A stretch of DNA of 64,000 nt, from NCBI RefSeq assembly GCF_002775205.1, contig NC_036464.1, forward strand, positions 372,001 to 436,000, read 5' to 3'. Each line of letters begins with the position of its first letter. The first letter of the stretch is position 1. The position numbers were made by a program, and so were the translations under genes. The notes below the pieces were generated by a model. The model made no database searches. It saw only the letters and a program-made list of their open reading frames with translations, and was not told the DNA's origin. Origin of the DNA: Xiphophorus maculatus (lineage: Eukaryota > Chordata > Actinopteri > Cyprinodontiformes > Poeciliidae). Below are positions 9,101 through 39,500 of this stretch, in pieces.

Positions 9101-12100
9101 TAAAGTCAACCAGTACCAGCGTCTCGACTTGGAGGGTTTGGAAAAAATTGAAATCGGTGAGGAGTTCAACTCAAAGGAGAAGTCCGTTCGCATTCACTGA
9201 GTCACCCAACACTTCCTGAAAGTGTTCTCAGTAACCTTTTAGCAACATCCTCACTGAATATGATTCATGCAGTGACAGCAGATTATTAAAAAAAAAAAAC
9301 AGAAAAAAATGGATGTGATTGGGTTTGTGCAGGTCCGGAGCCCACTCTGTTCGGGAAGCCGAAGTTCTGCTGCATGCGTTTGCACTATAGGAGTCAAGAA
9401 ACCAGTGGCTACTTCCACACTCTGAGGGCGGCGACGCGCAATCCGGAGGACGACGGGAAAGGTAAGGAAGCAGAGGAGAAGAAAAATGATCTTCTTTGGT
9501 TTCATTTTGGACTGTTTCAAGATCATAAATGTCCTCAAAAGGCCGGTGGTGGAAGGATTTAATGATAAAACTCATTGAAGAAACGGCTAAATGTATGAAT
9601 AAATGGCTGTTTTTACATTTGGTGATTAGGCCTGTCACAATAATCAATAAATCAATTAACTGCATGATAAAACAAACTCACTACTGGCATAATTTATTGT
9701 TTTTGTCTTTCTACCAAAAATTGGATGATAAAAGTTCTCAGTTTGGTGTTTTGGTTTCAACTTGCCATTTTTAAGAATATTTCTGTTTGAGAGATTTCAT
9801 AATTCATCTTATTTGTTGCCTTATTTATTTATTTTAGATTTTTTTTAAATGTCTTCCAGTTCCAGTGTTAAATATTCATCAAACTTTAAAGTTTACTGAT
9901 TTTTGAGAATGTGTTCTTGCATTATTATCATAATATTACTTAAAAATTGTCTCAAATCAACGATATTATCTTTTATCGCAATAACTTCTGGAACAATTTA
10001 TCATCCAGCATAATTGTCATGACGGACCTGTTGGTGATCACTACTTAACGTTAAATAAAATTGAACGTATTTTCAAATTGTTTTAATTTGGCAAAAGTGA
10101 TTTGATTTAATTAGTAATATAATGTCATGTTAGAGGGCCACAGAAGAAGTTATGGCGGGCCAGATTTGGCCCCCGGGCCCTGACTTTGACACCTATGTTC
10201 TGAGGTGTCAAACATGAAGTGACGACTTGCGCTGCAACGTTTTTCAGATACGCTGCAGTGCATCGCTGAGATGCTCCGCATAACGAAGCAAGCCTCCGGG
10301 CTGGACCTGCTCGTCGTCGAGAAGAAGCTGGAGAGGCGAGTATGAAGCAGTGCTAAAGTATTCATACCAGTTCTGTTGCATGTTGTTATTTACAAACACA
10401 AACTTCACTATATTCTCCCACCTGATAATCAAGTAGATTCAGTTCTATTAAGGGCCAAAGTTGCAACATTTGTTGCATTGGTAAATGACTCAGTGCTTTC
10501 TCACTGCACTGAGTCAAATGAACCAAACTAATTGAAAAACCTGTTCCCCTCCTCGCCTGTGGGGGCGCTACACCAAGAACCACTGATGGAAACAATACAA
10601 AAGCCTCAGAAGAAGACAATGAACACAACTTCCTTCTTCACAAATGTAAACAAAAATAGAGTAGTGTCAGATTTTAGTGGTTGTAGGGTTTTTCTTTTGT
10701 TGAGCCATTTCTTCTGCTACTGCTGGACTAGTGTGTTTGTTTTAGTAGTTTTTACCCAGAATGCCGTGTGCTGTAATCCACGTCCTGGTATAGACTCAGT
10801 TAGATTGGGGACAAAAATTGGAACAAGCGTTAAATTTTCAGCTGCTGTGGTTCACGTTCACGTTGCTTTGTGTCAATGCAAACTAATAAAAAACCTGTTC
10901 CCCTCCTCGCCTGTGGGGGCGCTGCACCAAGAACCACTGAAGGAAACAATACAAAAGCCTCAGAAGAAGACAATGAACACTACTTCCTTCTTGAAATGTA
11001 AACAAAACTGGAGTAGCATGTACAGCCTTTGTTTATTTACTGCTGTGAATAAGTTTTCTAATAAGCAAGTTGTGGTTTTTAGAGTCTGTGTACTTCAGTT
11101 ATCAATAATCACAATGAATCATTTCAGTCCAGTAATTTTGGCGTTTCGTCCGTGTTGCAGGCGCCAGAGTAAACCTCATGAGGACATCATGGGGATCCAG
11201 AACAAGCCTGCAGGTCAGGCAGCGGGCAGCTCTGGACTCGCTCAGGGGAAAAGCTTCCTCCTCAACAAGTTCTCCTCCCTCAACCAGAAGGTGAAGCAGA
11301 CCAAGACCAACGTCAACATCGGCCCCTTCAAGCCGCTCGGCAAGCTGGGGAACTTCTCCAAACCCGACGTGACGGTTAACTTCCTCAAGCCCACCATGCA
11401 CGTCAACCTGTGGAAGTCGGACAGCAGCCTGGAGACGTCGAACGGAAACCCCGTTGCCGCCACTCTCGGCGTCCGGGGTGACGAGCGCTACGAAAACGAC
11501 TCGGACTCCGACTCGTACAATTCCGAACCCGAGCACCCGTGCTCCGGCTCCTTCGACAAGGTAGACTACGTCCTGCCTAGCTGTGGCATCGTGGCATCGA
11601 ACCCGCGACTAGGCAGCCGCTCGCAGTCCATCGGCAGCGGCGAACTCAACATTCCGTCTGTGATCCACGTCACCGGCTGCCAAGATGACGTCTCTGACAT
11701 CAACGACAAGTCGCCCGGCGCCGCGTCGCTGGCGGAAGAAGCGCTGCTGATCGACTTCGGGACACCCATCGACGCCTACTGCCAGCAGTTCGTTCAGGAC
11801 GCCCAGACCAAACCAGTGGAGGTGTTTGGTGAGCTGCCGGCGTCCAGGGTCGCGCCGCTGCCGCAGAAGAAGAAAACCCCCGCAGACTCTGAGCAATCCA
11901 ACCTGCAGACCCAGAACCAGGACGCCCAGCTGCCCCGACCGTCCCAGCTGGACGTCCAGACCTCTACCTCCGGTTCCAACCTGCTGTCCGTCCAGCGGCC
12001 CAGCTCGGCGGCGTCTGGCGGCTCCCAGAAGAGCCTCGGCTCCCTGATGGAGGGCAGCCTCGGACCGTCGCCCGCCGACAGCAACGGCAGCCGCGTCGTG

Positions 12101-12292
12101 TCGCCGTTCGCTAAGATCCGCAGCTCCATGGTGCAGGTGGCCAGCCTGACGCAGGCGGGGCTCACGCAGGGCCTCAACTACGCCGTGGCGAAGGTCCAGA
12201 AAAGCCCCGACCCGGACGCTGTGAGCGACGCTCAGGAGAGCGATCTGAAGGCAATGTTCACACAGTGCCAGACGAGGATCATCCAGATCTAA
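102..12292 (+). CDS. inpp5f: inpp5f (SAC2) phosphoinositide phosphatase, 3' part, 15 exons
   Basis: Recognised as INPP5F/SAC2, a SAC-domain phosphatase that removes the 4-phosphate of PI4P (5-phosphatase activity also reported) on early endocytic membranes. Coding exons with consistent phase: 102-158, 272-470, 1777-1956, 2055-2122, 2758-2882, 2972-3049, 4387-4507, 6418-6546, 6734-6851, 7789-7987, 8932-9003, 9083-9156, 9333-9461, 10248-10335, 11161-12292. They give 922 residues; by comparison with the human protein of about 1130, roughly the first 200 are missing to the left. The SAC catalytic motif C-x5-R-T ([11 protein letters not shown]) is in exon 4387-4507. The hSac2 homology region lies in exons 7789-10335, followed by a long Ser-rich tail. 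All introns are GT-AG except 10336-11160, which probably has a GC donor. Splices are inferred without transcripts. Confidence in identity is very high. Confidence 0.96.
790..1150 (+). pseudogene. Tc1/mariner transposase remnant
   Basis: Decayed in an inpp5f intron. [10 protein letters not shown] resembles the Tc1 GSVMLWG block; the stretch after it, in a shifted frame, recalls the DND-x-KH region (ACAATGGTCAAAACATATTT), and ELKRRGHES with KEERSKI resembles the C-terminal WxELKRRV...KEEW block. Stops and frameshifts break it. Terminal repeats not located. Confidence 0.6.
1360..1440. repeat. repeat fragment with paired X-box palindromes
   Basis: GTTGCCTAGCAAC at 1377-1389 and GTTACCTAGCAAC at 1408-1420, 31 bp apart, the same spacing as the pair at 26920 and 26951. 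Likely a fragment of the same MITE family. Confidence 0.55.
4387..4507 (+). CDS. inpp5f: inpp5f catalytic SAC exon
   Basis: Internal exon of the gene above, listed because it carries the active site. It reads ...[18 protein letters not shown].. followed by [18 protein letters not shown]. The Cys of NCMD and the Arg of DRT form the CX5R(T) cysteine-phosphatase signature, so the copy appears catalytically intact. The exon is flanked by tgtcag on the left and gtacga on the right and enters with phase 2 completed by its first base. Confidence 0.95.
4990..5230 (-). pseudogene. decayed LINE reverse-transcriptase fragment
   Basis: In an inpp5f intron the minus strand reads [16 protein letters not shown], then after a frameshift YADDTQLYI ending in a stop: RT motifs of a Rex1/L2/CR1-type non-LTR element. 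Only about 240 bp remain. Distinct from the L1 clade of the intact copy, whose motif is FADD. Confidence 0.75.
5700..6390. repeat. nested MITE fragments in inpp5f intron
   Basis: 5750-5965 matches the palindromic MITE family (TTCTAGTTCCACTG, TTACTTGTAAGTTAGTTTT); it is followed by a piece of the TTAA-flanked MITE (GGCGGGGCTTAACGCTGTCAA, ending GCATTCTGCAGCTTTAAAG at about 6387). The same order is found at 12424-13356. Confidence 0.55.
8160..8830 (+). repeat. degenerate AATAAAGTCGTAATA repeat block
   Basis: Imperfect tandem units of the form GAGAATAAAGTCGTAATAATAC fill an inpp5f intron, giving about a dozen AATAAA hexamers in the sense strand. Confidence 0.7.
9595..10035. repeat. interspersed repeat (family also at 60075 and 63797)
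   Basis: GCCTGTCACAATAATCAAT ... GAATGTGTTCTTGCATTATTA ... matches 60075-60480 in the same orientation and 63797-64000 inverted. Probably a non-autonomous DNA transposon. Confidence 0.6.
10336..11160 (+). other. inpp5f: inpp5f intron with probable GC-AG splice sites
   Basis: The phase needed by the last exon requires the previous exon to end at 10335, giving donor AG|GCGAGT, the form typical of GC-AG introns; the acceptor is TTGCAG. This yields [11 protein letters not shown], the same length as the human junction as I recall it. An alternative using GT at 10340 and AG ending at 11167 is also in frame but drops one residue. The intron carries the direct repeat at 10526 and 10886. Confidence 0.6.
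10526..11005 (+). repeat. direct duplication of about 120 bp in inpp5f intron
   Basis: Copies at 10526-10648 and 10886-11005 share CCTGTTCCCCTCCTCGCCTG, GAAACAATACAAAAGCCTC and AATGAACAC with few differences, about 360 bp apart. Both fall in an open frame that runs into the last exon, which makes a misleading long ORF. Confidence 0.85.
11161..12292 (+). CDS. inpp5f: inpp5f terminal coding exon (C-terminal tail)
   Basis: Large last coding exon of about 376 codons. It begins [13 protein letters not shown] and contains the conserved block [19 protein letters not shown], the Ser-rich central part, and the conserved end [20 protein letters not shown] ... CQTRIIQI followed by a TAA stop. The open frame runs upstream of the exon through intron sequence, including a duplicated repeat, so the true exon must be cut at the acceptor TTGCAG ending at 11160. 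The tail is mostly low-complexity and less conserved than the phosphatase domain. Confidence 0.93.
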
Positions 12293-17954: not shown

Positions 17955-20900
17955 TCAGGGCTCGTTGCCGTTGACGCTCTTATGTTGCTCCATACGGCTC
18001 CGTCGCAGCGTCTCGATGTGTTTGGCCCGGAGCCAGCTGTCTCTGGACAGCGACGTCTGACCCAAACTCAGCGACAGCAGCCTGCAAAACACAGAACCGG
18101 TTTCCATTAGCCGTAAAACTGAATTTACTAAAATAAAACCGCTTTTAAGAAAAACAAAACACGTTTTTAAGCTAGGATGAGGCGATTTTTCAACCGTGTC
18201 GAAACACTTTTTTTCCCGCCTCATACGAGTCACGTGATCAAGAGCTGGCCGTTACAATAAAAACAGCGAAGAAGACTGAGACAGGAAGTAGTAGTAGGAT
18301 GGCGGGGTGTTTTTGTTTTAGGACAACGAGCAACTGGCTCCACCAGAGCTCATAAACGTCGTCTGTGTTTCCAACCCGTTGTATGCATAGCGCTTACGTA
18401 AAATGGCCGACAACAATTAATCTAAAACGCCGCTTACGTGACGTCACGCGCTGAAGAACGCAGCCAACTCTGTCATGGCGGACGTTAAAACAATGTTTGC
18501 TCTCCTAGCTTGTCAAAGTTGGCAGCTTGTATCTTGAGTTTGTCGCTCCAACGCCTGAATAATATGCAGCTAAAGTCTCCTCTGATGGCGGAGTTATGGA
18601 TACATCTCATGTAAGTGTTTACATTCATCACCGCCATGATGTTAATGAGTTATCGCGTGAACTAGCTTATTCGTGTGAGATTTTATTTTCATTTATTTAA
18701 TGGAAACGCTGCAATTGTGAAATTGTGTTTCCCTGCTATACATTAGCAGAACATGGAAAAATGTGGGCGCATCTGTAATAGAAACGCGGCTAATGAGGGG
18801 TTAGAAACCCGTCCGGGTTCGGACCGCTCACCTAGCAACAACCAGCATCCTGTGCAGGTCGTCGGCAGATATGCTCTGTGGGTCGTCTTTCCTCATGTCC
18901 ACGAAGTCATCTTCAACCGCCTGGGGAGACAAAACAAAAACAACATGGCTGACCTGACCGGTTCACATCCGAGCCAAACTGAAAGACTTTAGGTCAGTGG
19001 TCTCCAAACGTTTAAGACATATAAAAGTCGAAAATTTTCTAAAAACAAACAAAGTAAAAATTTTTATTCCATTTAGGAAATTCTCTAGAAGAAACTTGAA
19101 AATTTATGAATTTCAAAAGTGGAAAATTAAAATTTCTTTAGTGGAAGAAAATTAAAAATTTTCAACTTGAAAAATCTCAGTTTGAAAATACTTGATATTT
19201 TGTTAAGTACTTTCAAAATGGCAAGTCAAAGTATTTTGACTTAACTTAAAATGGTCAAGTTAACATTTTGTTTTAAAAGTGTGGAGTTGAAAGACCTTTG
19301 TCACTTCGTCTGAGATGCTGTAGTCGAGCAGCCGAGCGAGGCTCAGGAAGACTCTGAACTTGTTGAGCTGCGATGAGGCCTGCGGATGGACATGGATGCT
19401 GCTGAGGTATTCCTCCATGTGGGGCAGCGCCACCTGAGGCTGCAGGTGTATGTGGCAGTCGGACTGCCGAGGCAAAGAGGAGGAAATAATTACACCCAGT
19501 CAGTAAAAAAGATGGAAAACATTTTAAAAAAAAGACTGTAGTAATCAGAGGAGGTGGATTCAGGTTTCATCTTTCTAACACCTGCAGCCATGAGGACGTT
19601 TTACGTCGTTTCTATTATGTAATTTTATTACTTTAGTCTCGTACTCTTTCTAAAATATGATTTTATTCTCATTCTATTACGACTTTATTCTTGTAACATG
19701 AATTTATTCTCAAAATATAATTTTATTTTAATAATATTACGACTTTTTTCTTAAAATATTACAACTATATTCTCCTGATATGACCATCTTAAAAATTACA
19801 TTTCTATTCTCATATGTCTATTTTTATTTTATTTTTGTCGTCCCCAACACTCCTGGGATCTCTGCTGTGTTTTATTTTCTCATAAACTCCCCAGTTCTGC
19901 CATGGGCAGCCCATGCTGACCTCTGACCCCTGCTAGCCAGGAGTTGTGTACACGGCGCCGCCCGGCCTCCTCCAGGACCGTTTCCTGCGGCTAACAGCTG
20001 CCGCCATGGCAACGCACTGGAGCTGTGTTCAGGAATAGCACGCGCCACATTCCTCGGCCCGAAGCATCGTCGCCATGACGACAGCAGGAAACCCAACCCG
20101 TGCTGAGGGGACTGAGGGGGGGTTCCTAAAGGCGCGGGGGCGGGTTTGGGCCTGTTGTCCTCACCGGCAGCAGCGAACGTCCCTCCGACGCGACCAGCAC
20201 GTTAATATTGCAGGGGAATTCCATCTGGTGGAAGTTAAAGTCATAATCCACCTTCTGCCAGGTGATCAGGTTCCCCAGGGCCGTCACGTTACGCACACCT
20301 GCGGCACAAACACACGGTCAGGGGCGTCCAGGAGGCGGCTCGCCGTCGCCCTCTAGTGGCGCCTCACCGGTGGCGTCCAGCTGCCCCGGCTCCAGCTGGG
20401 TTTCGTCCAGGAACAGGGAGGTGCTGCAGGCCAGCTGCAGCGCGCCGCTCACCAGCCGGTTCGCCACATAGTCCTTCCTGGGAACGAGCCGCATCTGGTT
20501 CATGTTCTGGAGGCTCATAGCCAGGTAGAACGACTGGAAAATAACAACAAAATACAGAAAAACCAATGAAATACAGGAAAAACTACGAAAAACAGGAAAA
20601 CATAAAAAGAAAATACATATTGATTCAGATCAATATGTTTTCATTTATATTCAGTTTGATTTAAAAGGCTTAAAAATACAAATTTGGCTTTGAGGATCCC
20701 TGGTTTACAGGCACAAAACATTTGCAAGGTTTAGTGGAAGGAAAAAATAAAAACATTTGAAAGACTTACAGGAAGAATAAATGGAATATTCAGAAGACTG
20801 AATAAAATTTTAAAGGTTTAATGGAATAAAAATGTCTGGAAAATTTAGTGGAAGAAAAAAGTTAGAAGACTTTGGAAGATTAAAGAAATAAAAACTTTGA

Positions 20901-23900
20901 AGGTTCAGAGTATTGAAAAAAGATTTGAATAAAAAGCATTTTGATATGGAAGGTATAGAGGACTGAAAGAAGAGTTGAAGGCTTAGTAGAAGAAAAACAG
21001 TCTGGAAAGTTTAGTGGAGGAAAAAATTATAACGTTCCAAAGATTGAATGGAAAGTTTTGAGGATGAAGTGTTTTGAGAGTTTAGTGGAAGGAAGAAAAC
21101 AACATTTTTATAATACAGAAACTCTCCATGTTTTCCATCACCTTTCAGATGGTCACTGACCTTACAGCTGTCCATCCTTAAAAATGAGGGTTAGTCATTG
21201 CTGAAGAAGCTGAATCCAGGCATTTTAATGGAAAATTAAGTGGAAGAAAAAACTGACAAAAAAAGTTGCTCAAGTAGAAGTGAGAGGTTTGTGAAGCAGC
21301 GAGGCGTTCCTGAATGATACCTCTGAGGGTTAGCATTGTATTACAGTGAGTTTTTAGAAAACAACGCTCTGATTTCCTGCGTTCCTGAACTCACCGACGG
21401 GACGAGCTGCTGGATGATCTGGTAGAGGCGCTGGGTGTAGGCGGTGGTGGGGCAGCCGCTCAGGTTCAGGGTGAACTTTCCCAGCGGCAGAACGTCTCGC
21501 CTGGAGTACCTGCGACAGCACGGAGACGCTAGCTTAGCTTCGGACGCGGCCAGTTTCGGTTCTGACCCGAACCGGACCTACACGCTGGAGAGGAGGTGCA
21601 GCAGCAGGAACTCGGCAGCCAGAGAGTCGCCCAGCAGGACGTGGGTGAAGTACGACAGCAACTCGGCCCGGACGGCGGCCATCTCCCCGAGAGCCGACGA
21701 CAAAACTGCAGAGAGAGAGCGAAGGGAGTTTCCATGGTGACGAAAAGAAGGCCTGCCTTCAAGGCTACAGCAGAAAAACGACTTGATCTCCATGGAAACG
21801 AGGAAAAAACTAACTTTAAACTAACAGGAGAAAAAATCAAAAAGATCAAGATAAATCAGGGATATCTGAACACAAAGAAACACCAATAACTGGATAAATA
21901 CAGGACAGGAAGACGACTGGAAAGTTTAGTGGAAGGAAAAAAACAATAAAAAATTGTATTTTGAAGGTACAGTGGCAGAAACTATTTTGATTGTTTTAGA
22001 TGACGTAAGAAAGTTTGGAAGGACTAGAAAAGGAAAAGAACAACTGGAAGGTTTAGCGGAAGGAAAAACTTAAGTTGAAGGTTCAGTGGAAGAATTTTTT
22101 TTTATTATTTAGAGAATCGAAGGAGGTTTGGAAAGTCCAGAAATTCACTGATCCTCAAAGGACAATAATTTTTTGGCCTAGTCCAAACAACGCTCTGAGC
22201 CGTCACTGATTCCTTACAGGCGCCGTTCTCCTGCAGGGCGGCGCCGGGGAGCAGCGGGTTATTGTGTTCCAGCCGCTCGGCGTGGAGCAGGTGGAGGCGC
22301 GGGACGAGGGAGGCCGGCGGGCTGTGGACCCGCTGCTCCGCCGTCGACTCCATGCCGACCGCCGGGTCCAGAAACGAATCCCTGCAGAACAGAACCAAAG
22401 CAGGTCAGAACCAAAACAGGTCAGAACCAAAACAGGTCAGAACCAAAGCAGGTCAGAACCAAAGCAGGTCAGAACCAAAACAGGTCAGAACCAAAACAGG
22501 TCAGAACCAAAGCAGGTCAGAACCAAAGCAGGTCAGAACCAAAGCAGGTCAGAACCAAAGCCAGTAGAGACCCAAACAAGAAGGAAATCACTGCCAAAAA
22601 ACTCATGAATTTTCTAGAGAAAAAAATTTGGAATTTGTGGCCAAAAAAACTGAAATGTTGGATTACATGGAAATGTTCTGCGTTTCAAAAGTCAAACATT
22701 TTTGAATTTGCAAAATTTCAAAGTTTCAAATGTTGCAAATGTTTGACATTTAAATTTTCTGAGTTTCTAAAGCTGAAATTTTTTCCAGAAAGTTTTTCTC
22801 AGAGAATGTTTGGCAGTTTTTTGTGCCAAATTTTTGACATTTCAAGCTCAGAAATTTCTTGTTTTTTTCACAAAATTTCTCAGTTTTTTTAATAACAAAT
22901 TTTCAACTTTTAAACCTCAGGGATTTCTGGTGTTTTCTAAAAAATATTAGATCAATCTAAAGTTTTCTGATTATTTTCTAGAGAATGTTGAACTTCTGAA
23001 GCTCAGAAATTTAAAATTATTTTCTAGAAAATTTCTGAGGTTTATAATTTTGTTTTTTAAAACTCAGAAATGTTCTTGTTTTTTCTAAGAAATTAATCTC
23101 AACATTTCTGATTTTCAACTTTTTAAACTGAAATCTTTAAATTTTTTAGATTCCTCTGAAAAAAAATTTTGTAGCAAATTTTAAACTTCTGAAGCTCAGA
23201 AATTTCTTGTATTTTCTAGAAATTTTCTGAGATTAATTTCAATATTTGAGTTTTTTGTCATAAATGTACTCCTCTTGTTGCCTCGTCTCTACTGCGGCTC
23301 TCACACACCGTCGCAGAACCAGACCGGACGCAGGAAGCAGGTAAACGTGACTCACTTCTCATCGGCCAGAGCGCTGAGCGCGGGGCTGACCGACAGGATG
23401 CCGTACACCTGCAGCGTGTCGTTCAGCTTGAAGCGGTCCCAGTCCTCGTACACCTGGGCAGGACACACCTGTCAGAACCTGCTCCTGGAAAAGCCACGGC
23501 CTGCGATCGGAACCCACCTTCACCAAGCACGACGGGCCTTTCTCGCCCAGCAGCGGGAAGTTCAGGTCCAGGTGGGAGGCGGACGCCGCCTGGCCGGAGG
23601 GAGCCTCCGTCTCCTGACGCTTACAGTCGCCGTTACCGTGCGGGTCGGCCGCGCTCGGGGAAGCTGCGTCAGAAACAGAGGAAATACGATACAGCTGCTG
23701 CCCCCTCTGGTGGAGATGTGTAAAAACACTTTAAAACAAAACTATTTCAGTATTTTAGAGCAGATTTATTCTCGAGGTTAAAAAAAAAAACAAACAAAAA
23801 ATACTGAAAAATATAAGGGCCACTGAAAAAAAGAATTCAGACTTTAATTTTCTGAGAAAAAAAGTCAGATTTCTGAGTTTTATGAAGTCATTTTTACGAC

Positions 23901-26900
23901 GTCGTTTTAAGGATGTAGACAAAAAAAAGAAAAAAAAACAAAACATGGGATTTTTTTCTTTTAAAAAATTCTTTAATAAAGAGGTTTTATATTAAAAAAA
24001 AACTCTTACAATCTGAAATTATAAAAATTTCAGATTTTTTTCTAGAAAATTTCTAAAATGTTTCTCAAAATTCCTGAGATTAATTTCAAACATTTTCTAG
24101 CAAACCCTAAACTTATCAAAATCAAAAATGTCCTTTTTTTGTAAAAAAATTCTGAGATTTATGTCAAACTTCCTGAGATTAATTTGTAAGTTTTTCTCCA
24201 GAAAAATTCAGTTTTCAGAATGTATTTTAGCTACAATGACTTTAAAACGCCGTCAGACATCCCTGCTGCTATTTAATATATACATTTATTACATATGTAT
24301 GTTTAGTAAATACAAATAATTTATATTTTTATTCAATATATATGTTTATAGTTTTGTTAGAAATATATATAAAGAAACTTAAAGCAAAAAAAGGAGCCAA
24401 TAGTTTAAAAATAATGAATAATATTGTTAGGAGTGTCGACAATTATTTCTTAATGTGGAATTTTGTCGTTAAAGGATAAATTAAAGGCTGGATTTGTCAA
24501 AATTTTGTATTTTCCGTTTATATTCTTGCAGTAAAGTTTGAATTTATTTTAAGGATTTTCTAAACACATTTTTCCTGCGTTGTAAATCATTAACTGTGGC
24601 GTTTTGAGGGCACCTGCATGCGTTTCCTTCTGTTTCTGTGGCTGAACCTCCATTTCCTCGTCCTCCTCGTAGCTGCGCTTCTGTCTGCTGGGAACGTACG
24701 ACGTGGAGGGAACCACCCTGCCCTGGTTACTCGTCGTCTCCACGTAGCCGTGCGCCAGCATTAAGGAATAATTTCAGACACACGGGATTTAAAACGCTGA
24801 AACGAAGAGAAAGGTTTGTACGCTTTTTCCACAGTAAAATTCAAAACACTTTGGAGATAAAAACAACGATACGAATGAACTAAAAAAAACTGTTTCAATT
24901 AATTATTATATCATAGCATTTATTACTGTTATCAATAATACTTGGTGATTTTATTTACTTTTTTTAAATGGCCGCTTAAAAATTGTTAGTCAATCAATAA
25001 GATCAATCTATGTTAGATTAATTAACTTTAGATTAATAACTTAAATCTTTACTTTAGGTTGCAGTTTATTATAAAACTATGCAGCTTAAATATCAAGAAC
25101 TTTCCAAACCTTGAAAAGACCTAATTGATGTTAAACTGTAACAGAAAAAGGTTAATTTATCGCGTTTGTGCGTCAGGATATGTCCTTGGCCCACTGGTTC
25201 TCTCCAGGGATGGGAACACAGTAGAACGTCTGTCTCTCTGCAGTCACTGCGTTTCTGGAGTTTACATCCACCTGCAGATAAAAGCAGCTGCAACGAGGCG
25301 TTCAGGAACCGACTTGGAGCCCAAAGAGACGAGGCCTTACCCCAGACTCTGTCACATCTTTGTATTTGCCGCACCGCAGCGTCTGGGGAGCGTCAGGCAG
25401 TGAAATGAGAGGAGAGCAGCCAAAACGTGATAAAATGCAAACGAAGCTGCAGGCTATGTAAATGTCTGCAGGGGAGGAAACAAGGAAGCGCTCACTCTGG
25501 CCTGGGTGGCCGGGTCGACGGTCTCGTAGACTCCCATGAAGAACTCCGGGTCGAACATGTCCTGGACCAAACAGCGGAACTTCACCAGGCTGTCGGGCTT
25601 CAGGTAGTGCAGAGGAACGTCGTTCAGAGACGGGACCTGAATCCAGGGAAAGGTGAGAAAACGGCTGGAGACTCGTACGCTTTCCAGGGGTCAGCGATCC
25701 AAACTCAGAAATTCATCATGATAGTTTGTGGTACTAAAGACATACTGCAAGTTATTGACTGAGGGCAGAAAGACGATTCCTTTACTTGCTGCGGTAGAAA
25801 AATCCTGTTAATAAAATGAAACTTGTAGTTGTTAATTTAGTGCAGCGCGCCGCAGCCAAGGAAAATAACTCAGAAACCATTGGAGAACAACTCCAAACCG
25901 CTCGTATTCTTACTTTTTTCTAGCTCTGTGTCGGCTGGCTACACACAGACAGGTTGCCATAGCAACTGACTGACAACAGCTCCACTACATGTATCAGGAT
26001 TCAACACCAAACATTTGTAAAAAAAAAAATCAAGCAAACATTTCCTACAGAACATTCAGTTGGTTACAGTTTTATGTTTTCATGCTTGATGTTTATTTTG
26101 CGATTATTAATAAGTGATGCCTGAACACAGCGGTGGTTAATTAGCCAATTAAACACGAGCGCTACTGATGATCTGTCAGAGAGTTGCCGTTATTTATTTA
26201 CTTTTGCTTAACTTCATTTAATTTCCCTTTGCATTAAATAAAGTAGTGTTGAATATTTGAAATAAACCAAAACACAATGAATTCCACCGCGCACCTACAT
26301 GTTAAGGTTGTCAAAGTCAAGCTAGCATAACTGACTTACTTACCCCTGCCCGTCGCTATCTTTCTTTTTATTCAAACTTTTCACTTACTTGTAAAATGAC
26401 TTTGTCATTGGACTTTGTTTTGTAGTTGTCGTAGTGTTGACAATTAGCAGTAAAGCTTTTTATTTAATACATCAGGCGTACATCAACATTTAGAGCGACA
26501 ACTTGACAGCTCAAACAAAAGGTAGTGATCGACATGCGAGTGGCTTTGTTAGTGCGTGACGTCACGTTGCAACGTGTCTGATAAACTATTTACTTATTTT
26601 TTTTAGGTAACTTTATGGCTCTAGCTGCATGGCACAGCATTCATAGCGACACAAATGTTGCTCTTGAAAAACATTTGAAACAGTCTTCACTTTCTTAAAG
26701 TGTGTTTTATATCAGTAAACTAGACAAACACTGCAAAAAAGTATTTTTGTCACGTTTCTCATATTAATATCTCAGTTCACTAGAAATAAGACAAAACTAA
26801 CTTACCAGTAACTTTTCAGCAAGATATAGGAGCTTGTTTTAAGTCAGTTATTCCTTAATAATGAAGAAGCAGGACTAGTTTCCCTGGCAGATTATTTCCC

Positions 26901-29044
26901 AATCAACTGGCCCTGAGCCGTTACCTAGCAACGCCAGCCAAGCCCAACCCGTTACCTAGCAACCAGTTCTAGTTCCACTGGCAGATTATTTCACTTATAA
27001 CAAAACATTTTTCCCATTTTATGACTGAAATAATCTACCAGTTTAACTAGCACTTTTTCATAAATATTAATGAATTATTTACTAAAAACAGGCTTCTATT
27101 TCCTGCTGAAAAATTACTTGTAAGTTAATTTTGTTTTATTTCAAATGCACTAAAATATTCGCACAAGAATCTCGACCAAAAATATTTGGGAAAATTTGTG
27201 CATAGTTGAACGCAGTAACTGCATTTAATTATGTTTCCAAATTTAGTGATATTTATTGATGCTCTTGTGGAACGAATAGTGGAGAAAATAGTAAAAAATG
27301 TAATTTCCAATAACACTGTCACTTTTGTTTTTTTATTTGACATCATTAATTGAAATTGATCAAGACAACAATAAATCAACATTTCTAGTCATGGTAATTT
27401 TTTTGTCCAGCCTTAATGAGCTTAATGAAGCAGGATTACCAGAGTCTGGGCTTCTTTCTCCTTCAGCTGCTCTTTGAAAAACTCCACCGCCTTCGCCTCC
27501 CATCCTGAACTCTGACTGCTCTGGGAAGCAGCTGTGAAACCAAAACACACAAATTTACTCTCAGAATCATCCAGTAACATCCAGCTGGTATTTCTGCAAC
27601 AAATTATCATCTCAGTAAATTAGAATATCTTTAAAACGTTAATATATAAAACGCAGGATATTGGATTATTACATTAGATTAAGCCTGCAGCTAATGGTAA
27701 TTTTAGAAAACAGTCTATATTGTTATTCTGATAATCGATTAATCTGAAAAAAAAAAATATTGGCACATTCTGCAAATATTATTTAAACACTTAAATGAAA
27801 AATGTCTTAAAGTTGCATATAAATAATTCAGTTCCGTTTTTACATACAAAACCAAACATTTTATTGCCTAAAGTACAATACCACAGCATTCATTTAGTAA
27901 ATCTGAACCACGTGAAGCTAAAAGTGTCACTTGAGAAATTTGGGTCAAAAATATTTTCATAGGCAAAACATTTTATCTTAAATGCAAAATGTATATGTTT
28001 TTTGTGCAGCTTAAGAACTCGTCTGAATATGTTTTTATAGTCCATTTACTCAGCTAACAATTAATCAATTACTAAATTAGTTGCAGATTATTTCAATAAT
28101 CTATTAATCACGATTAGCCGTTTCAGTCCTGCATAAGTTCAAGAAAAACTGATTTAAAACAAAAATCTTGTGAAGATTGCTAACAGTAAGAGACAGAAGG
28201 TCAGTGCTAAAGAAGCTACATAGTGACGGATCCAACGATTTTAATGGAAAGTTTAGTGAAAGGAAAAAGTAGAGCAACAGGGATGACTGCAGCTAAAAAT
28301 ATATTGTATATATATTAATGCATCTGATCGTCCCAGCAGAATTTGTAATATTACACATTTACATAAAAGATGGATGTTGTATATATTTTTGTACAAGTTT
28401 GGCTTACTTACTGCTCTGACTGTTGTTCTTTCAGCAAAGTTCCTATATTTGAAACTCAAGTTAATGATTGATTCATAAATTAGCTGATTTCAATGATCGA
28501 TTATAGTCGTTTCAGATCTAGACATGTTCAGTAAATTGACAACAATTAATGCCTACCTTCTAGTAGACACTAATTTATCTATTAAATGTCTTTTTAAAAT
28601 TGTTGTATGAGATATTCTAATTCACAAAAAAGTGTGCTGTGAGTTTTTATTTTAAAAAATACAAGTAAATGCTTGAAATAGTTCATATTTATGACCTAAC
28701 TCGACTTTGGGTGGCATTCCACCTTAATTTGAAGGATTTGTATCAACAACAAAGCGAGCATTTAAACGGTTCGGCGGCATTTCCTGCGGTCCAGAATGAG
28801 GAGTGGTTCTGGAGTGGTTCTGGCAGAAGCTCGCAGTGAGTCGGTGTTTAAATTAGAGACTTAATGGAGATAAAAGCGCAGCAACGTGTGATGTGCTCTG
28901 TTTGCGTGGTGTGGACCAGGCTAGCCGCGGCTAGCTAGCAGCTTCCACGCGCCTCACAGAGAGAGAAGTTCCGCCCGGAGTCTTACCGAACATCCCCTCC
29001 ACCACACCCAGAGGGTCGTTAATCCAGTCATGAGTGGAAGGCAT
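17955..29044 (-). CDS. mcmbp: mcmbp, mini-chromosome maintenance complex-binding protein, 16 coding exons
   Basis: Complete gene for MCMBP, a nuclear protein that binds MCM3-7, supports MCM stability and helps remove MCM from chromatin late in S phase. Exons in transcript order: 28987-29044, 27440-27531, 25496-25636, 25341-25382, 25182-25271, 24614-24749, 23518-23663, 23356-23453, 22218-22381, 21582-21705, 21395-21509, 20368-20533, 20165-20298, 19296-19463, 18832-18920, 17955-18081. Lengths sum to 1890 nt, 629 residues plus TGA (human is 642), with phase kept at every junction. It starts [19 protein letters not shown] and ends HKSVNGNEP. Conserved blocks include [70 protein letters not shown], and [20 protein letters not shown]. 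One intron is AT-AC (24750-25181). The first ATG fits the family N-terminus. Confidence 0.97.
18180..18770. repeat. composite interspersed repeat in mcmbp intron
   Basis: Ends (GAGTCACGTGATCAAGAGC... at 18225; ATTTAATGGAAACGCTGCAAT at 18695) match the family at 34540, 40040 and 45780; the middle (about 18300-18650, with GTGACGTCACGC) looks like a later insertion. Confidence 0.5.
19020..19210. repeat. degenerate TTTTCAAC/TTGAAAA repeats
   Basis: Low-complexity intronic block of imperfect units; 19610-19790 next to it holds GACTTTATTCTTGTAA units. Confidence 0.45.
20690..21260. repeat. degenerate GGTTTAGTGGAAGGAAAAA minisatellite
   Basis: Imperfect units of about 25-40 bp in an mcmbp intron; more units at 21910-22110 and near 28245. 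Confidence 0.6.
22391..22563. repeat. 16-bp minisatellite (GGTCAGAACCAAARCA)x10.75
   Basis: Ten full units (22403-22562) plus a partial first one, varying only at one A/G site apart from the last base, in the order A A G G A A G G G G. It begins within 10 bp of the 3' splice site of mcmbp exon 22218-22381. Confidence 0.97.
22600..23270. repeat. degenerate TTTCTAGAAAATTTCTGAG repeats
   Basis: Imperfect units in an mcmbp intron; the same family continues at 23990-24220. Confidence 0.55.
24750..25181 (-). other. mcmbp: U12-type AT-AC intron of mcmbp
   Basis: Read on the minus strand, exon 25182-25271 ends ..WAKD and is followed by ATATCCTGAC, matching the U12 AT-AC donor (ATATCCTT) at seven leading bases. 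The next exon starts at 24749 ([10 protein letters not shown]) after TTCCTTAATGCTGGCGCAC. TTCCTTAAT is an exact match to the U12 branch-site consensus TTCCTTRAY, about 11 nt from the terminal AC. The join is phase 0 and reproduces the family sequence. No GT lies near the donor that would keep frame, and an in-frame TGA upstream of the exon excludes a canonical AG further upstream. Confidence 0.88.
25650..26740. other. mcmbp intron, no gene; one X-box palindrome
   Basis: AT-rich intron between exons 27440-27531 and 25496-25636. Contains GTTGCCATAGCAAC (25953-25966) and GTGACGTCAC (26567). No coding potential seen. Confidence 0.5.
26745..27175. mobile_element. palindromic MITE with paired X-boxes
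   Basis: The left arm (TCACTAGAAATAAGACAAAA, CTTACCAGTAACTTTTCAGC) returns inverted in the right arm (GCTGAAAAATTACTTGTAAG). Between the arms are GTTACCTAGCAAC at 26920-26932 and 26951-26963. Relatives at 5750 and 12480. Confidence 0.75.
27655..28520. repeat. ATTAATCGATTA-type interspersed repeats
   Basis: AACAATTAATCAATTACTAA and AATAATCTATTAATCACGAT belong to a family also at 31270-31720, 32560-32950, inverted at 35830-36190, and in pieces at 45390, 52500 and 63560. Confidence 0.6.
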
Positions 29045-30526: not shown

Positions 30527-33500
30527 ATGGCAGATAGAAAAAATAACAATGTTCCCAACAGCAGTGCGAATTTATTGTTCAGCGCCGCCCCGGAGTTTAA
30601 CTTCAACCTGCCGTTTATGCCGGTGAGCCAGGCCACCGGGCCGGCGGTGCTGTCAGGAGGTGAGAGTTAGCGAGACTGTTTGAGGAAATGTTTAAACTGT
30701 GGACAGGTCGTTAGCATGCTAAGCTAGCCAGGCTAACCTCCTGCTATCAGCTGTTATTGAATGAAAGACACAGAAGCACCACGATAAATAGTCGACAGGT
30801 TTGCTAGATTATCCAACTTCTGAATGCTTCTGCTGTAGCATTCCTGCTATTGGTGTTTATCACAATAAGTGGCAAATAAATTACTAGGTTAAAGTGCATA
30901 AACATCACATTAATGTTTCTACAAACTCTACTAGAGACAAAATGTAGCAAATTTTCATAACCGAATAAAGGTTTTGCCTTTGTTAATACCAAAGGCAATT
31001 TTTCCCCTCCTTTTAAATCAGTGAATAACTGTGATTGATCACATTTATTTTTGGTTTGAATTGATTTGGTTCACCAGGTGGGATTAGTGTCCAATCTGTA
31101 GAATAAGTCAATTTAATTCAGTCAAATAATAGATTATTCATCCCAAAGAGAAATTATGATGTCTCCTATCATTTAAGTGTCTTCAAAGAATTGTTTTGGT
31201 GATGCTGTAGGCAGGAAGAATCTCCAGTAGCAGTCAGTACTGCAACAAATCTGAACAGGCCTCTGACTGAAGACTGTTGCTGTATGACAGTTACATGACG
31301 TACTAATGATTATTTTAGTAATTTATTATTTTATCAATTATTCTGACAATAATTCTGATAAATTGTCACATCCTACAGATTTTCATTTAACTGAATAAGC
31401 CTTTTTTATACATTAGAAATACATTAAAAGACGCAAATAAACAAATCAGTTCACTTTTATAAAATAAGTAACTAGACTTAAATGCAATAACAGCATTAGT
31501 TCAGTAAATCTGAACTTAGTGGAGCTAAAACTCACTCCAGGAGCTTTGACTAAAATATGTTTACAAAGTTAATTTTTTTATCTTAAATGCAAAATGTACA
31601 TATTTTTGTACAGTTTTGGCTTATTTACTGCTCTGAATATGTCGCTTTTTTTGAGTCCATACACTCCAGCTAACAATTAATCAGTTACTAAATTAGTTGA
31701 CTGATTAATCGTATCAGCCCTGATGCTAACAGCTCAGTGTCCGCCGGGCAGCAAAGATGATATTCCACAGTAAAATGTCCTGGATGACACCATCAGTTGT
31801 TAGCAAGTACTGCTAATCCACTTCATTTTCTTTTGCTGAGAGATGTTGGCGTAGCGGATATGTTGATACAATGCAAAGGGGAAGCAGGAGGCCCATTAAA
31901 AAATTAAAGAAGACAGAGAGGACTTGTAGCTGCCGTTAAATTTATTATTTTTCATCCTTCAGAAGAAGATTCCACTGATGTTGGAGAAGAAGACAGCTTC
32001 CTTGGTCAGACCTCTGGCGTTGTACCAGCATCCTCCTCCACCTTCAGCTACTTCTCCAGTCCGGCCACGACCTCTGACCCGTTCGCATCCATCGGCCAGT
32101 CGCCATGCCCCCCATCCACCATGTCCTCAGTAGCCGGACCCGTTTCTGTTCCCCGCAGCATCAGCATGGCTCCAACTCCGCCGCCACCGTCTACAAGCTC
32201 ACAGATCAACCCGCCACCTCAAGTGTTCGGCGGCGCCGTTTACCAAAGCCCAGTGGGGCGCCACACTCCTCCCCCGACCACCATGACGCCGCCGCCCCCC
32301 CTGATGCAGCCGCAGGCTCACAACCCGTACCGCCACACCCCCAGCAGCAGCCGAGCCAGCCCCTACATTCCAGCGCCGGAGGTCCTGCCGCCAACACACA
32401 CGCCGCCGCAGATCCCCTACTCTATCAGCGCGCCGCAGATGATGTTTCCCCCCCCAGGCCCGACGTTTACAACAGTAGGTGCCACAAAATTTCTATTAGA
32501 TGTTTCCAAGGTTTAGAAAATCCTCAAAAAAATTACAAATAAGGACGTGGGTTTTTTTTTTTTAAATCAGATACAAAAAATAAGCACATTGTGGTGATTT
32601 GTCATTTAAACCGTTTTTTATACAATATTAGAATTACAAAGTTGCCTAAAAAGAGATTTTTTAATTATTTTCCTTACAGCATTTGAACCAGATGAAGCTA
32701 AAGCTGCCACTCGAGGAGTTTAGGCTAAAACATTTTTACAAACTTTTGTTTTTTTCATTTTAAATGGAAAATGTTCAGATTTTTGTGCAGCTTTGGCTTC
32801 ATTACTTGTGTGGCTGTGTTTTTCTTTGAGCAAGTGACATTTTTTGAGTCTGTAAACTCCAGTTAACGATAAATGGATTACTAAATTAGTTGACGATTAT
32901 TGCAATAATCAATCACAATTAATCCGAGTAATCGTTTCAGACCTACACCTCATAAAAAGACTCTGAAGTTAAATCAGACTAAACTTTTCTTGTTTTAGGT
33001 TAGTTAGAATCACCAAAATTATTTATATTTGTTAAATGGCAAAAAATTTAGCAAGAACATTATTTAGAGATTATGTTTTAAACTTTCACTGCATATTTTG
33101 TTTAAATATTTTACCTTAACACAATTTGTTTGGGTTGTTTCAATGTAATGAATATTTATAGTTCCTAATTGATGTATAAAGATTATCTTATATTAGGTTT
33201 TTTTGTTAAATTATTGTTTTGTTCTCAGACCAGTCAAGATGTGTGAGACATTTCAAAACATAAAATTTTGTTATATTTTTAGCTTAACTTATTCCTGCTG
33301 TAAAATGTAGAAACTGTCACAAAGCATTAATAGCAGTAATAATTGATATAATTGAAACTGTCTTTGTTTTTACTGGAAAAGTTTGAAAACTTGCCTTGAA
33401 AATCCTTGAAAAGTGCTTGAATTTTTGTACAAACCCTGATCTGAATAAATCTTTTTTCGTTCTTCAGCCTCCTCCCTCACATGTTCAGGCGGCTCCTCCT

Positions 33501-36500
33501 CCGCCCGCTGCCGCCGCCGGCGCCGTCGTTCCTGCAGGTCCGATGACGCTGTACAACTACAATGTCTACGAACCGGTCCAGCCGCACTGGTTCTACTGCA
33601 AGGAAGTCGAGTCGAAGAGCGTCTGGTTTCCTTTGAGCATCATCGACTCGCTGCAGCTTGAGGAGACGTTCAACTCAGGTACCGAAACACAAAGAGAATT
33701 GGTGAATATTTCACACACAAAGTCTGAAGACCTTTGGTTCCGCCAGTCCAACCGGACCCAGAGAACGTGGTCGTCCGGACGGACGGCGGGCGCTACGACG
33801 TGCAGCTTTACGACCGCATGCGCAGCGCCGTGTACTGGGAGGAGGAGCCCACAGAGGTCCGGCGCTGCACCTGGTTCTACAAAGGCGACAAGGACAGCCG
33901 CTTCGTCCCGTACTCTGAGGAGTTCAGCGAGAAACTGGAGGTTCGTAAAGAGGCGCCACCACCTGGCGGTTCACCAGAATGCACCCGAAAATGATTCAGA
34001 AAGCAACAACTGGTCAGCAACAATTTGTTGATGGCTTTCAATTCAACTCAAAAATACTTTATTGATCCCAAAGGGAAGTTAAATAATAATTTCATCAATT
34101 CACATAGTTTTAAATATTTAATATCTATTAGTGAAGTCTCAATAATTCATGTTGGTTCTTTGGTTTTTAAAATGACCAAAAACAAATTATCAGGGTTTTT
34201 TCCTCTAGTTTTTTTTTTGGTAGAAGAACAATAATTTCTAAAAACACAATTAATTTTTTTTCTTTTGAAGTTGCAGAAGCTAACTTTTAGGATTTTATTT
34301 TTACATATTAGTTGGTATAAAACAGACAATATGTGAAAAAATTAAGCTCCGCTGATGTAATGAATTACTAATTTATTTAATTAACTCTCCACCAGTGCAG
34401 CACATTTAAAAACATAAATACCTTCACAAGTTTGGTCAAATATGTAAAAACAGCTTGAATTTGGTCAATCAGTGTAATTAGGAGTAAAACAACCAATGTA
34501 AAATAAATCATAAATTCTGGATCTGCCCCTACGGATCAGGAACATTGGCTGCATTTCCAATTGTGCAATTTGACATTTCGAGAAATTTCCAAACAATTTG
34601 TTTTTCAATCAAAAGTTTTGTTGCTTGGGTGAGGTGGGTTTTTTTCGGCTGTATTGAAGCTTCAATGGAAATACTTTTTTTTGCATCACGACTCGCATGA
34701 TCAAGAACAGGATGTTACTTCTGCCGGAAACCATGAAGAAGAAATCGGAGGAAGTAGTTGAAGGATCATGGATCTGCATGTTTTTCAATGAAGAAAGTAA
34801 AAAATGAATCTATCCATGTATGATTTTAATTGCATTTTTTATTTAATGGTAACTCTGCAATTGCAAAAGTGTGTTGTTTTTTTTTTACATGAATGAAATA
34901 CTGACAAAGTTTTGTTTACATCTGTAGCTTGTATCACTGATAACCAATGTAGAATTCTTTTCCATATCAGGATCCATTCAGATATTAATGTCCAATCGGT
35001 GCATTTCTAACTACAAAAGTAAGTAATCAGCCCTCAGACTGTGACTTCATGAGTACATTTTTCACCTTCAGGCAGAATATAAAAAGGCCGTATCAACAAA
35101 CCAGTGGCATCGCAGGCTGGAGTTTCCATCCGGAGAAACGATCGTCATGCACAACCCAAAGGTGAGCCCAAACCGTCCTCAGTAGCAAATTACCAGACAA
35201 ACCCGGTTTGGACGTTCTGTTTGTTCCCGCAGGTCATAGTCCAGTTCCAGCCTTCGTCCAACCCAGACGAGTGGGGTACCACTCAGGACGGGCAGACGAG
35301 GCCGAGGGTGGTGAAGAGAGGGGTTGATGATGACCACGACGAAGTGCCTGATGGTATTCTGCCTCGCTGCGAATCAGAACGGTGGAACCAACATCAGTTC
35401 AGCTGAAAATGATTTGTTTTGCTTCAGGCGAGCTTCCCACGGTGGATCATCTGGTGTTCATGGTCCATGGCATCGGCCCGGTTTGCGACCTCAGGTTCAG
35501 GAGCATGATTGAGTGCGGTGAGCGGCGTCTCCACCAGTGATCCTATCTGTGGAAACTTTAATTTAAACGCAGCGTCGTTTGCTTCCAGTGGACGACTTCC
35601 GGAGCGTTTCGCTGAAGCTGCTGCACAGCCACTTCAAGAATTCGCTGGACGAACACGCCATCAGCCGGGTGGAGTTCCTTCCTGTCCAGTGGCACACGGC
35701 TCTCCACGGAGACGCCACCGGGGTGGACAGGTGGGCTGCGAAACGCATCCGACCCAAACGATTCATCAAATAACTGTTGACTGAAGCGGTCACTGATTAA
35801 TCATTAACTTTAGAATTCACTCAAAAAAGATCATTTAAAGAAAAAGCAACATATTCAGAGCAGAAATTAAACCACAACTGTACAAAAAATAAATACATTT
35901 CGTATTTAGGATAAAAACTTATTTGTCTGTAAATATATTTTAGCCAAAACTCTTCAAGTGGCAGATTTAGTTTCATTGGGTCCAGATTTACTAAATGAAT
36001 GCTACGGTATTGCATTTTAGGCAATAAAATGTTTATTTTATTATAAAAAATAAAAAAATTGATTAGTTATTTGCGTCTTTTAATGTATTTCTAATGAATA
36101 AAAAAGTGTAGGACTGAATTATTTGATTAGTCACAATTAATCAGTTATTGAAATAATCGTCAACTAATTTAGTAATCGATTAATTGCTGACAAAAAGCTG
36201 CAATCAATACGTTTCTACTTTGATTTTCTCGGTTATTTTTTAATATTCACTTACATTTTTCTTGGTTCATGTATATAATCTAAACGATTGAAGCTCAGTG
36301 TGTAAATTATTTAGATGTTTTATCCTGCTTCATGTTGTTGGATTTAAAATGTCCAGGTTGTAGGTGTTTTGTCTCAGTAAATGAATTATTTTGATTTTTT
36401 TTCAGGAGGATTAAAAAGATCACCCTGCCCAGCACCGGACGGTTGCGCCACTTCACCAACGAGACGCTGCTGGATGTGCTTTTCTACAACAGTCCGACTT

Positions 36501-39500
36501 ACTGCCAGACCATCATGGACACTGTGGCTCAGGAGATCAACCGTCTCTACGCCTTGTTCATGAACAGGAACCCCGACTACAGAGGGGGAATATCGGTGGC
36601 CGGACACAGCCTGGGTAAAACGAAACCCTGTTTTTTATTTTTAAACGGCAGATTCACGTTTCCGGTTTTAATGGTTACTGTCGTCTCTGCAGGATCCCTG
36701 ATTCTCTTCGATCTGCTTTCCAACCAGAAAACCGTCTCTGCTGCGCCGCTGCTGCCGGCCGCGCCCGCCGCTAACGGAGAGGTAGAGCGCAAACCCACCA
36801 GGAAACGCTGAAATGTGTGGAACTGCGTGTGGAAACGCTGCGTCTCGTTTCAGGTGTCGGCTCCTGCCGCGAAGGAGCCGAACAGAGAGGAAGAGGAGGA
36901 CGAGGAAGAGTTTGAGGATCTCGCTGCTGTGCTGCAACATCTGGGCCTCTCTGAGTACAAGAGCACCTTGGACCAGGAGAAGATCGACATCGAGTCTTTA
37001 GTAAAAATATAAAAATCTCCTTCACTTTATATGGATTTGCTGAAAGTTGAAGAAGAAAAAAAAGCTTGAATGTGTTTTTCCAGCTCATGTGTACGACGGA
37101 GGACCTGAAGGACATGGGGATCCCTCTGGGCCCGCGGAAAAAACTCACCAAGTTCGTGAAAGAACGAGTCAGCAGACAGGTGGGCTTGTTTACGTGTTCA
37201 GCAAAATACAGCAAAACTAAATGTTTCTAACACTCTGAGGAAGTTACAAAAAAAATCTCTAAAATGCTTTTCCAGCCTTTAGCAAATAGAAATAATTTAT
37301 ATGATTCTAACTAACCTAAAACACATCAAGGAAATTGTAGATATAATAAAAGGAGAACATTTCTGCCAAGAAAAAATACATTTTGAGATTAATTTCAGAA
37401 AAGATTTCTGAGTTTTAAAAGTTGAAAATTTACTAGAAAGAAAATGTGGAAATTCCTGAATTTCAAATAGAAATTTTTCGACTTGAAACTCAGAAATCTA
37501 CTGGTTTTTTTTCCAGAAAATTTCTGAGATTAATCTCAAAATTTCAGATTTTTTTTCAAGCAAATTTTCAGCTTTTCAAAATTCTAATTTCTTGTCTAGA
37601 AAATATGTAACATTTAGAGATTAATCTCGAAACTTCAGCTGTTTCTAGAATTTTTTTAACTGTGAAACTCGGAAATGTCCAAAAAATATTTCTAGAGAAT
37701 TTCAAAGATTCTCAAAATTTCAGATTAAATTTTTTTTTTCTTGCAAATTTTTGACTTTTCAAACTAGAAATTTCCCAAGTTTTTTTATTTTTTATTTCTG
37801 TGATTAATCTCAAAATTTCTGATTGTTTTCTTTTGAGGTTTTTTTTACAAGCAAATTTAAAAAATTTCAGACTTAGAATTTCCTAACTTTTTCTGTGAAA
37901 TTTTTGTGAATAATCTCAACATGTTTTGCTGGAAATTTGCTCCTTTCTTTTCTACTACACTGGACCTAATAGGTCGACCCTCTTTATGCAAGAGAAAACT
38001 CAAGTTTTTAAGAAAATATCCTTTTATCAGTTAATCGTTCGCCGATCAATGAGCTCAAAGTCATTAACTGATAGCTTGTGACCTTTAACCCTGCTGGGGG
38101 CGTGGTGGCTGTGTGTGGTCTCCAGGCCGGACGCCAACAGAGGAAAGCAGAAGCGAAGGAGGAGAGTCCGGCCATGGTAGCCACGGTAACCCAGCCTGCC
38201 GGTAGCGCCACCACCAAGCCACCAGTGGGCAGCACCGTGTCTTCAGTCCACGTCAACTACAACTACTTTGAAGTTGGAACTGGGCAGGTGGGTAAACCAC
38301 TGAAGAAGGAAGCTGATTGTTATGAACTGCAGCGGAGCGGCGCTGACGTTCTGCCTGGTTCTGCCTGGTTCTGCAGGTGTCGGTGATCTACCACAGCCTG
38401 GACTTTGAGCCGGTGAACTTCTTCGCCCTGGGTTCTCCGATCGGGATGTTCCTGACGGTGCGCGGGCTGGAGAAGATCGACGAGGCGTACCAGCTGCCCA
38501 CCTGCAAGGGATTCTTCAACATCTACCACCCGGTGCGAAGAGCCTGAACGTCTGAACGTTGGGAGTCAAACATCTACAAACTGTTTTATCTAAAGCTGAA
38601 AAACTAATCACCATGTAACCGTTTCATCTCAGTCTGTCAACTCTTGTTTTAAATACTGGTTTCCTGTTTTATCCAGTTTTCTCGCCGTTGTTTTTTATTT
38701 TTAAGCCGTTTTCAGGCAAAGTGGGGAAACTTGAAACTGTTACTGCCGGTTACTCAGCAGGCCGTTGCCAGGCAACCGAAGCTGGGGGCGGGAGACTTGA
38801 AACTGCTTCTTACCCAACAGGTTGTTGCTAGGCAACCATAGAGCGAGAGAGAGTTGATTCCACCACAGCTGAGTTAACAAGGAAAAGGTTGAGCGGAGTT
38901 CAGTGAATATTCTATATATTGATTATTGAATATTCTATCAGATATATTACCTATTGATATTGTCGTGATATTTATTGTTATTGATTTATTGCCCAGCCCT
39001 ACAGCGTCTGATTGGAAATAAGCTAACAGCGCCATCTTGTTTCAGCTGGACCCGGTGGCGTACCGAATCGAGCCGATGATCGTTCCAGATTTGGACCTGA
39101 AGCCCGTTTTAATCCCACATTACAAAGGAAGGAAGCGGCTTCATCTCGGTAAGAAACTTCTGCTGACTGATCAGCTTTCAGAGGCTGCTGGGATGTTTCA
39201 GTTTTTCATTTCAGAAAAACACTTTCTGTTGCTTAATCTCAGTTTACTGTTTGTTGAAACTGAGATTATGGCGTGAATACAGTGGAAATAAAAAAGGCAC
39301 AGACTCTTAGTTATTTTTCTGCAGTTTAACCATCTGAGTTTCAAATCTCCACCTGGATATTTTTGCTTATTTTAATTGTCTGAAGTTCTTTAAATGTCCT
39401 GTGAGTAAATATATTTTCCCTTTTCTCCATAACAACTGGAACTTTTGATAACTAGCAGTTATTTTCACAATGTACCAGAAGAGTTTCTCATCAGATTAAA

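Follow-up and report, generated by a model that had tools for sequence, protein, structure and literature searches.

A very probable U12-type AT-AC intron in a fish mcmbp gene, with two in-frame candidate AC acceptors

The window, that is, the whole 64-kb stretch of DNA analysed here, carries the mcmbp gene on its minus strand. Our coding model (17955..27531, modelled to 27531 at its 5′ side) comprises 15 exons and 14 introns; 13 exons were picked by eye and checked by script to give one open frame, and two further exons carry the frame to the stop codon TGA 17957-17955. The translation of the first 13 exons matches the Pfam family MCM_bind (PF09739) at 660.5 bits over profile positions 1-518 of 577, with a cut-off of 25.6. 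The plus-strand open frames at 31908-36811 and 10532-12292 are tentative candidates for sec23ip and inpp5f, genes located next to MCMBP in human; the four single-frame stretches tried had no Pfam match. Searches for an mcmbp retrocopy, i.e. a copy of the spliced message, with a 237-residue query returned six matches, all six inside the mcmbp locus itself, while pattern scans for relatives yielded 13 matches in genome contigs and two in viral contigs, none of which was confirmed. A search of solved structures produced no match at E 0.001, and an Rfam search of the whole window found nothing above gathering scores. The mcmbp intron ending at 22382 holds, near its acceptor, a tandem array (22390-22561) with a 16-base unit, 10.8 copies and 97% matches.

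Thirteen of the 14 modelled introns have GT-AG ends, and the remaining one has AT-AC ends (Table 1). Joining 25182 to 24749 across it, in phase 0, gives the sequence ...WAKD-GYVETT... in a single open frame that matches MCM_bind. Reading through the unspliced intron would give ATA TCC TGA, i.e. Ile-Ser-stop (TGA 25175-25173), and skipping the downstream exon shifts the frame. Slow removal of this intron would thus be expected to lower MCMBP output, since retention ends the protein two codons in.

Table 1. Features at the mcmbp AT-AC junction
Feature	Coordinates	Strand	Remarks
Upstream exon	25182..25271	minus	90 nt; ends ...WAKD (AAG GAC), followed by a phase 0 intron
AT-AC intron	24750..25181	minus	432 nt; starts ATATCCTGAC, ends TTCCTTAATGCTGGCGCAC; read directly
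U12-type 5′ splice site ATATCCTGAC	25172..25181	minus	read directly
Dispersed repeat	24805..25128		makes up most of the intron interior
U2-like acceptor TTTCTCTTCGTTTCAG	24797..24812	minus	inside the intron; found by eye
Branch site TTCCTTAAT	24760..24768	minus	putative branch A at 24761
Preferred acceptor AC	24750..24751	minus	11 nt past the putative branch A
Downstream exon	24614..24749	minus	begins GYVETT (GGC TAC GTG); 136 nt long, not divisible by 3
Alternative acceptor AC	24744..24745	minus	in frame; 17 nt past the branch A; drops GGC TAC (Gly-Tyr)

Most of the intron interior consists of an old copy, with internal deletions, of a dispersed repeat. When the genome was searched with it at the DNA level and 40 of 231 candidates were scored, at least 44 matches were obtained, including the locus itself. 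Seven copies were fetched, and all seven align, each as one to three segments, with 77-88% identity. The splice signals of the intron fall outside this repeat, and a check of 24700-25250 for repeats within that segment found none.

An earlier note on this DNA had described a U12-type donor, a consensus branch site and an AC 11 nt further on, and each of these is read directly from the sequence. The donor ATATCCTG shares seven of eight bases with the consensus ATATCCTT (RTATCCTT), the bases at +8 and +9 being G and A rather than T, and the branch site fits both TCCTTAAC and TTCCTTAAY, a form of the U12 branch-site consensus. The consensus sequences ATATCCTT and TCCTTAAC for U12-type introns are those given in a passage of PMC2831892. 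The distance from the putative branch A to the preferred AC is short and falls within the 11-13 nt described as best for U12-type introns in part of PMC3584512. The acceptor has no distinct pyrimidine tract (U2 acceptor score −2.1), and together with the donor (−4.8) it ranks lowest among the 12 introns scored, both values coming from hand-entered U2 matrices. Phase 0 is disfavoured among U12-type introns, according to a passage of PMC7367187, so that this intron lies in an under-represented phase.

Some sodium-channel genes have AT-AC introns that the major (U2) spliceosome removes, and it might be thought to take out the mcmbp intron as well; AT-AC ends by themselves, as a passage of PMC2831892 points out, are not enough to place an intron in the U12 class. 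We consider removal of the mcmbp intron by the U2 spliceosome very improbable, because the U2-type AT-AC introns described in that passage have G at +5, whereas the mcmbp intron has C there, and because a U12 branch site lies 11 nt from the acceptor.

The genome that carries this gene (704 Mb in 101 contigs) was searched for the U12, U6atac and U4atac snRNAs of the minor spliceosome and gave a single match to each family that exceeds its cut-off: 129.8 bits for U12, 130.6 bits for U6atac and 84.4 bits for U4atac. The U12 gene has GUAAGGAA starting at position 18, and the four nine-base stretches of the intron predicted to pair best with it all overlap the branch site: shifted by one base (−6.9 kcal/mol), unshifted (−6.7 kcal/mol) and in two further shifted registers (−6.5 and −6.3 kcal/mol); the next best lie in the donor (−6.0 kcal/mol). 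Pairing with U12 alone is, however, not proof, because 89 of the 63,992 minus-strand stretches equal or exceed UUCCUUAAU in predicted pairing strength. The pairing predicted between the donor and U6atac is weaker (−4.8 kcal/mol) than that of a consensus donor (−7.1 kcal/mol).

Over both strands of the window, RTATCCT occurs nine times and TTCCTTAAY four times. When RTATCCT was combined with TTCCTTRAY and a following AC or AG in introns of up to 1 kb, the mcmbp donor and branch site formed the sole pair, in two rows with AC at +11 and +17; with the limit at 5 kb, a second ATATCCT at 27661 also pairs with the mcmbp branch site, but it lies upstream of four modelled exons. Resampling the window 200 times with a first-order Markov model (both strands, 1-kb limit) put the number of rows expected per 64 kb at 0.04 for the strict and 0.39 for the looser pattern. 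Chance is an implausible source of the signals, because the close donor-branch pair lies precisely between two exons of a single gene that are in frame.

A conventional intron with GT-AG or GC-AG ends at shifted sites would be another explanation. In the ranges scanned around the junction, 37 of 209 GT-AG, 27 of 95 GC-AG and 15 of 126 AT-AC combinations keep the frame without a stop (79 in total). Relative to the reference length, only the join 25182/24749 keeps every codon; the AC at 24744 costs two, the nearest GC-AG join seven and the nearest GT-AG join 11. Scoring of ten of these 79 joins against MCM_bind, from exon 2 to part of exon 7, gave 225.7 bits for AC 24750, 229.0 bits for AC 24744 and 164.6-220.2 bits for the other eight, namely five GT-AG joins (164.6-203.9 bits), one GC-AG join (220.2 bits) and two AT-AC joins. 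On the hand-entered matrices, the best of the GT-AG and GC-AG candidates, 25194-24685 (donor −1.6, acceptor 1.7), is comparable to the weakest GT-AG intron of our model, 24613-23664 (−0.7, 0.7), but its use would remove 26 residues, and it reaches 189.4 bits on the profile. We rejected the GT-AG and GC-AG joins on the basis of codon loss (at least 11 and at least seven codons, respectively) and, for the six that were scored, also of their lower profile score. Moreover, any such join would leave the U12 donor and branch site unexplained, so that we give a conventional intron next to no credence.

These counts bear on two statements of the earlier note. Its claim that only the AT-AC join restores the frame is too strong and needs correcting: no other join keeps every codon, but another AC that is in frame follows after 6 nt, and joins of all three types, GT-AG among them, are represented among the 79. 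Likewise, the assertion that GT-AG alternatives fail is right in effect, given the codons each of them loses, but not literally, as 37 are in frame and free of stops. The in-frame TGA that it placed just before the 3′ exon is present (TGA 24776-24774) and is accompanied by TAA 24791-24789, both in the frame of GGC TAC GTG. The U2-like acceptor within the intron was rejected, because its use would bring this TAA and TGA into the frame of the downstream exon; it takes part in none of the 79 joins.

Taken together, the donor, the branch site, its spacing from the acceptor, the absence of a pyrimidine tract, the reading frame, the protein family and the three snRNAs agree with the proposal of a U12-type AT-AC intron in mcmbp, and we hold with high confidence, from these sequence features, that 24750..25181 on the minus strand is such a minor-class intron. 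Several observations speak against this reading, namely G and A at +8/+9, the weaker U6atac pairing, phase 0, the slight Pfam preference for AC 24744 and the unspecific U12 pairing. By the established steps of U12-type splicing, U11 and U12 would recognise ATATCCT and TTCCTTAAT jointly, U12 would pair around the branch site and leave its A bulged, U6atac would take over the 5′ splice site from U11, and an AC a short way past the branch A, most likely the one at 11 nt, would serve as the acceptor. We infer both the splicing of this intron as such and the choice of AC from the DNA.

The donor and branch site are firm, and AC 24750 is most likely the acceptor used. The acceptor is less certain, however, because two in-frame ACs lie six nt apart after one U12 branch site (AC GGCTAC GTG, 24744-24751 on the minus strand) and the second has a slightly better Pfam score (229.0 against 225.7 bits). 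With the same donor and branch site, AC 24744 could thus be the main acceptor (WAKD-VETT), or both ACs could be used to give proteins differing by Gly-Tyr. Human MCMBP has RefSeq isoforms of 642 and 640 residues, and a form two residues shorter would fit a tandem acceptor. The profile itself is undecided between the two, because the gap of about 3 bits is small, an artificial join of intermediate length, with one residue, scores 228 bits, and the profile has about one column at this point. When the two sides are scored separately, the upstream exons match MCM_bind as far as K at profile position 107, and the match of the downstream exons begins with the second T of GYVETT at position 113; by our count, about one column is left between D and V, where the longer join places two residues (GY) and the shorter join places none. 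The distance from the branch site favours AC 24750, since 17 nt exceeds the optimum of 11-13 nt given in the passage of PMC3584512. We therefore regard a main or shared role of AC 24744 as a real but clearly less likely possibility than the use of AC 24750. More tentatively still, both ACs may be used after the one branch site, yielding MCMBP with and without the two residues; such a tandem arrangement may be old in vertebrates, and it may be a rare instance in which the minor spliceosome steadily chooses between alternative acceptors. Alternative 3′ splice sites have been seen in U12-type introns, with doubt as to whether they are regulated or errors (PMC3584512, in the same passage).

With its preferred acceptor, the mcmbp intron resembles the U12-type AT-AC introns of vertebrates in its ATATCC donor, its TCCTTAA branch site, the AC at 11 nt and its position as the one minor intron among GT-AG introns; it departs from them in having G and A at +8/+9, an additional in-frame AC 6 nt past the preferred one, and a dispersed repeat in most of its interior. 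In vertebrates, intron type is described as remarkably conserved in a passage of PMC2831892, which puts the share of U12-type introns kept at 90% or more in comparisons of human with other vertebrates. For human MCMBP itself, a passage of PMC7612377 reports U12-type intron(s) that show more retention in two patients with RNPC3 defects; as this passage names neither which intron is concerned nor its terminal dinucleotides, the likeness holds at the level of the gene. Our literature searches, which covered texts other than supplementary tables, the usual home of such lists, found only this source for MCMBP with U12-type or minor introns, and nothing for C10orf119 with U12 or for zebrafish mcmbp with the spliceosome. 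PMC5538549, retrieved for MCMBP with intron retention, has no bearing on this intron, and PMC10853781, on U12-type introns, left the conclusions as they are.

The mcmbp AT-AC intron is thus very probably real, and it is not new biology: it is an ordinary member of an already known kind, because the intron class is known and the human gene has already been reported with such an intron. Its significance lies mainly in annotation, as gene finders restricted to GT-AG introns would be expected to misplace this junction. In addition, since U12-type introns of human MCMBP are retained more in the RNPC3 patients described in that passage of PMC7612377, the mcmbp site could serve as an extra readout of minor-spliceosome function in fish.

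Elsewhere in the window, the minus strand carries two long L1-type retrotransposon open frames (46181-51341), of which the longer (1254 residues) contains an endonuclease and a reverse transcriptase domain, and the shorter (347 residues) has an L1 ORF1-like match slightly under the Pfam cut-off.
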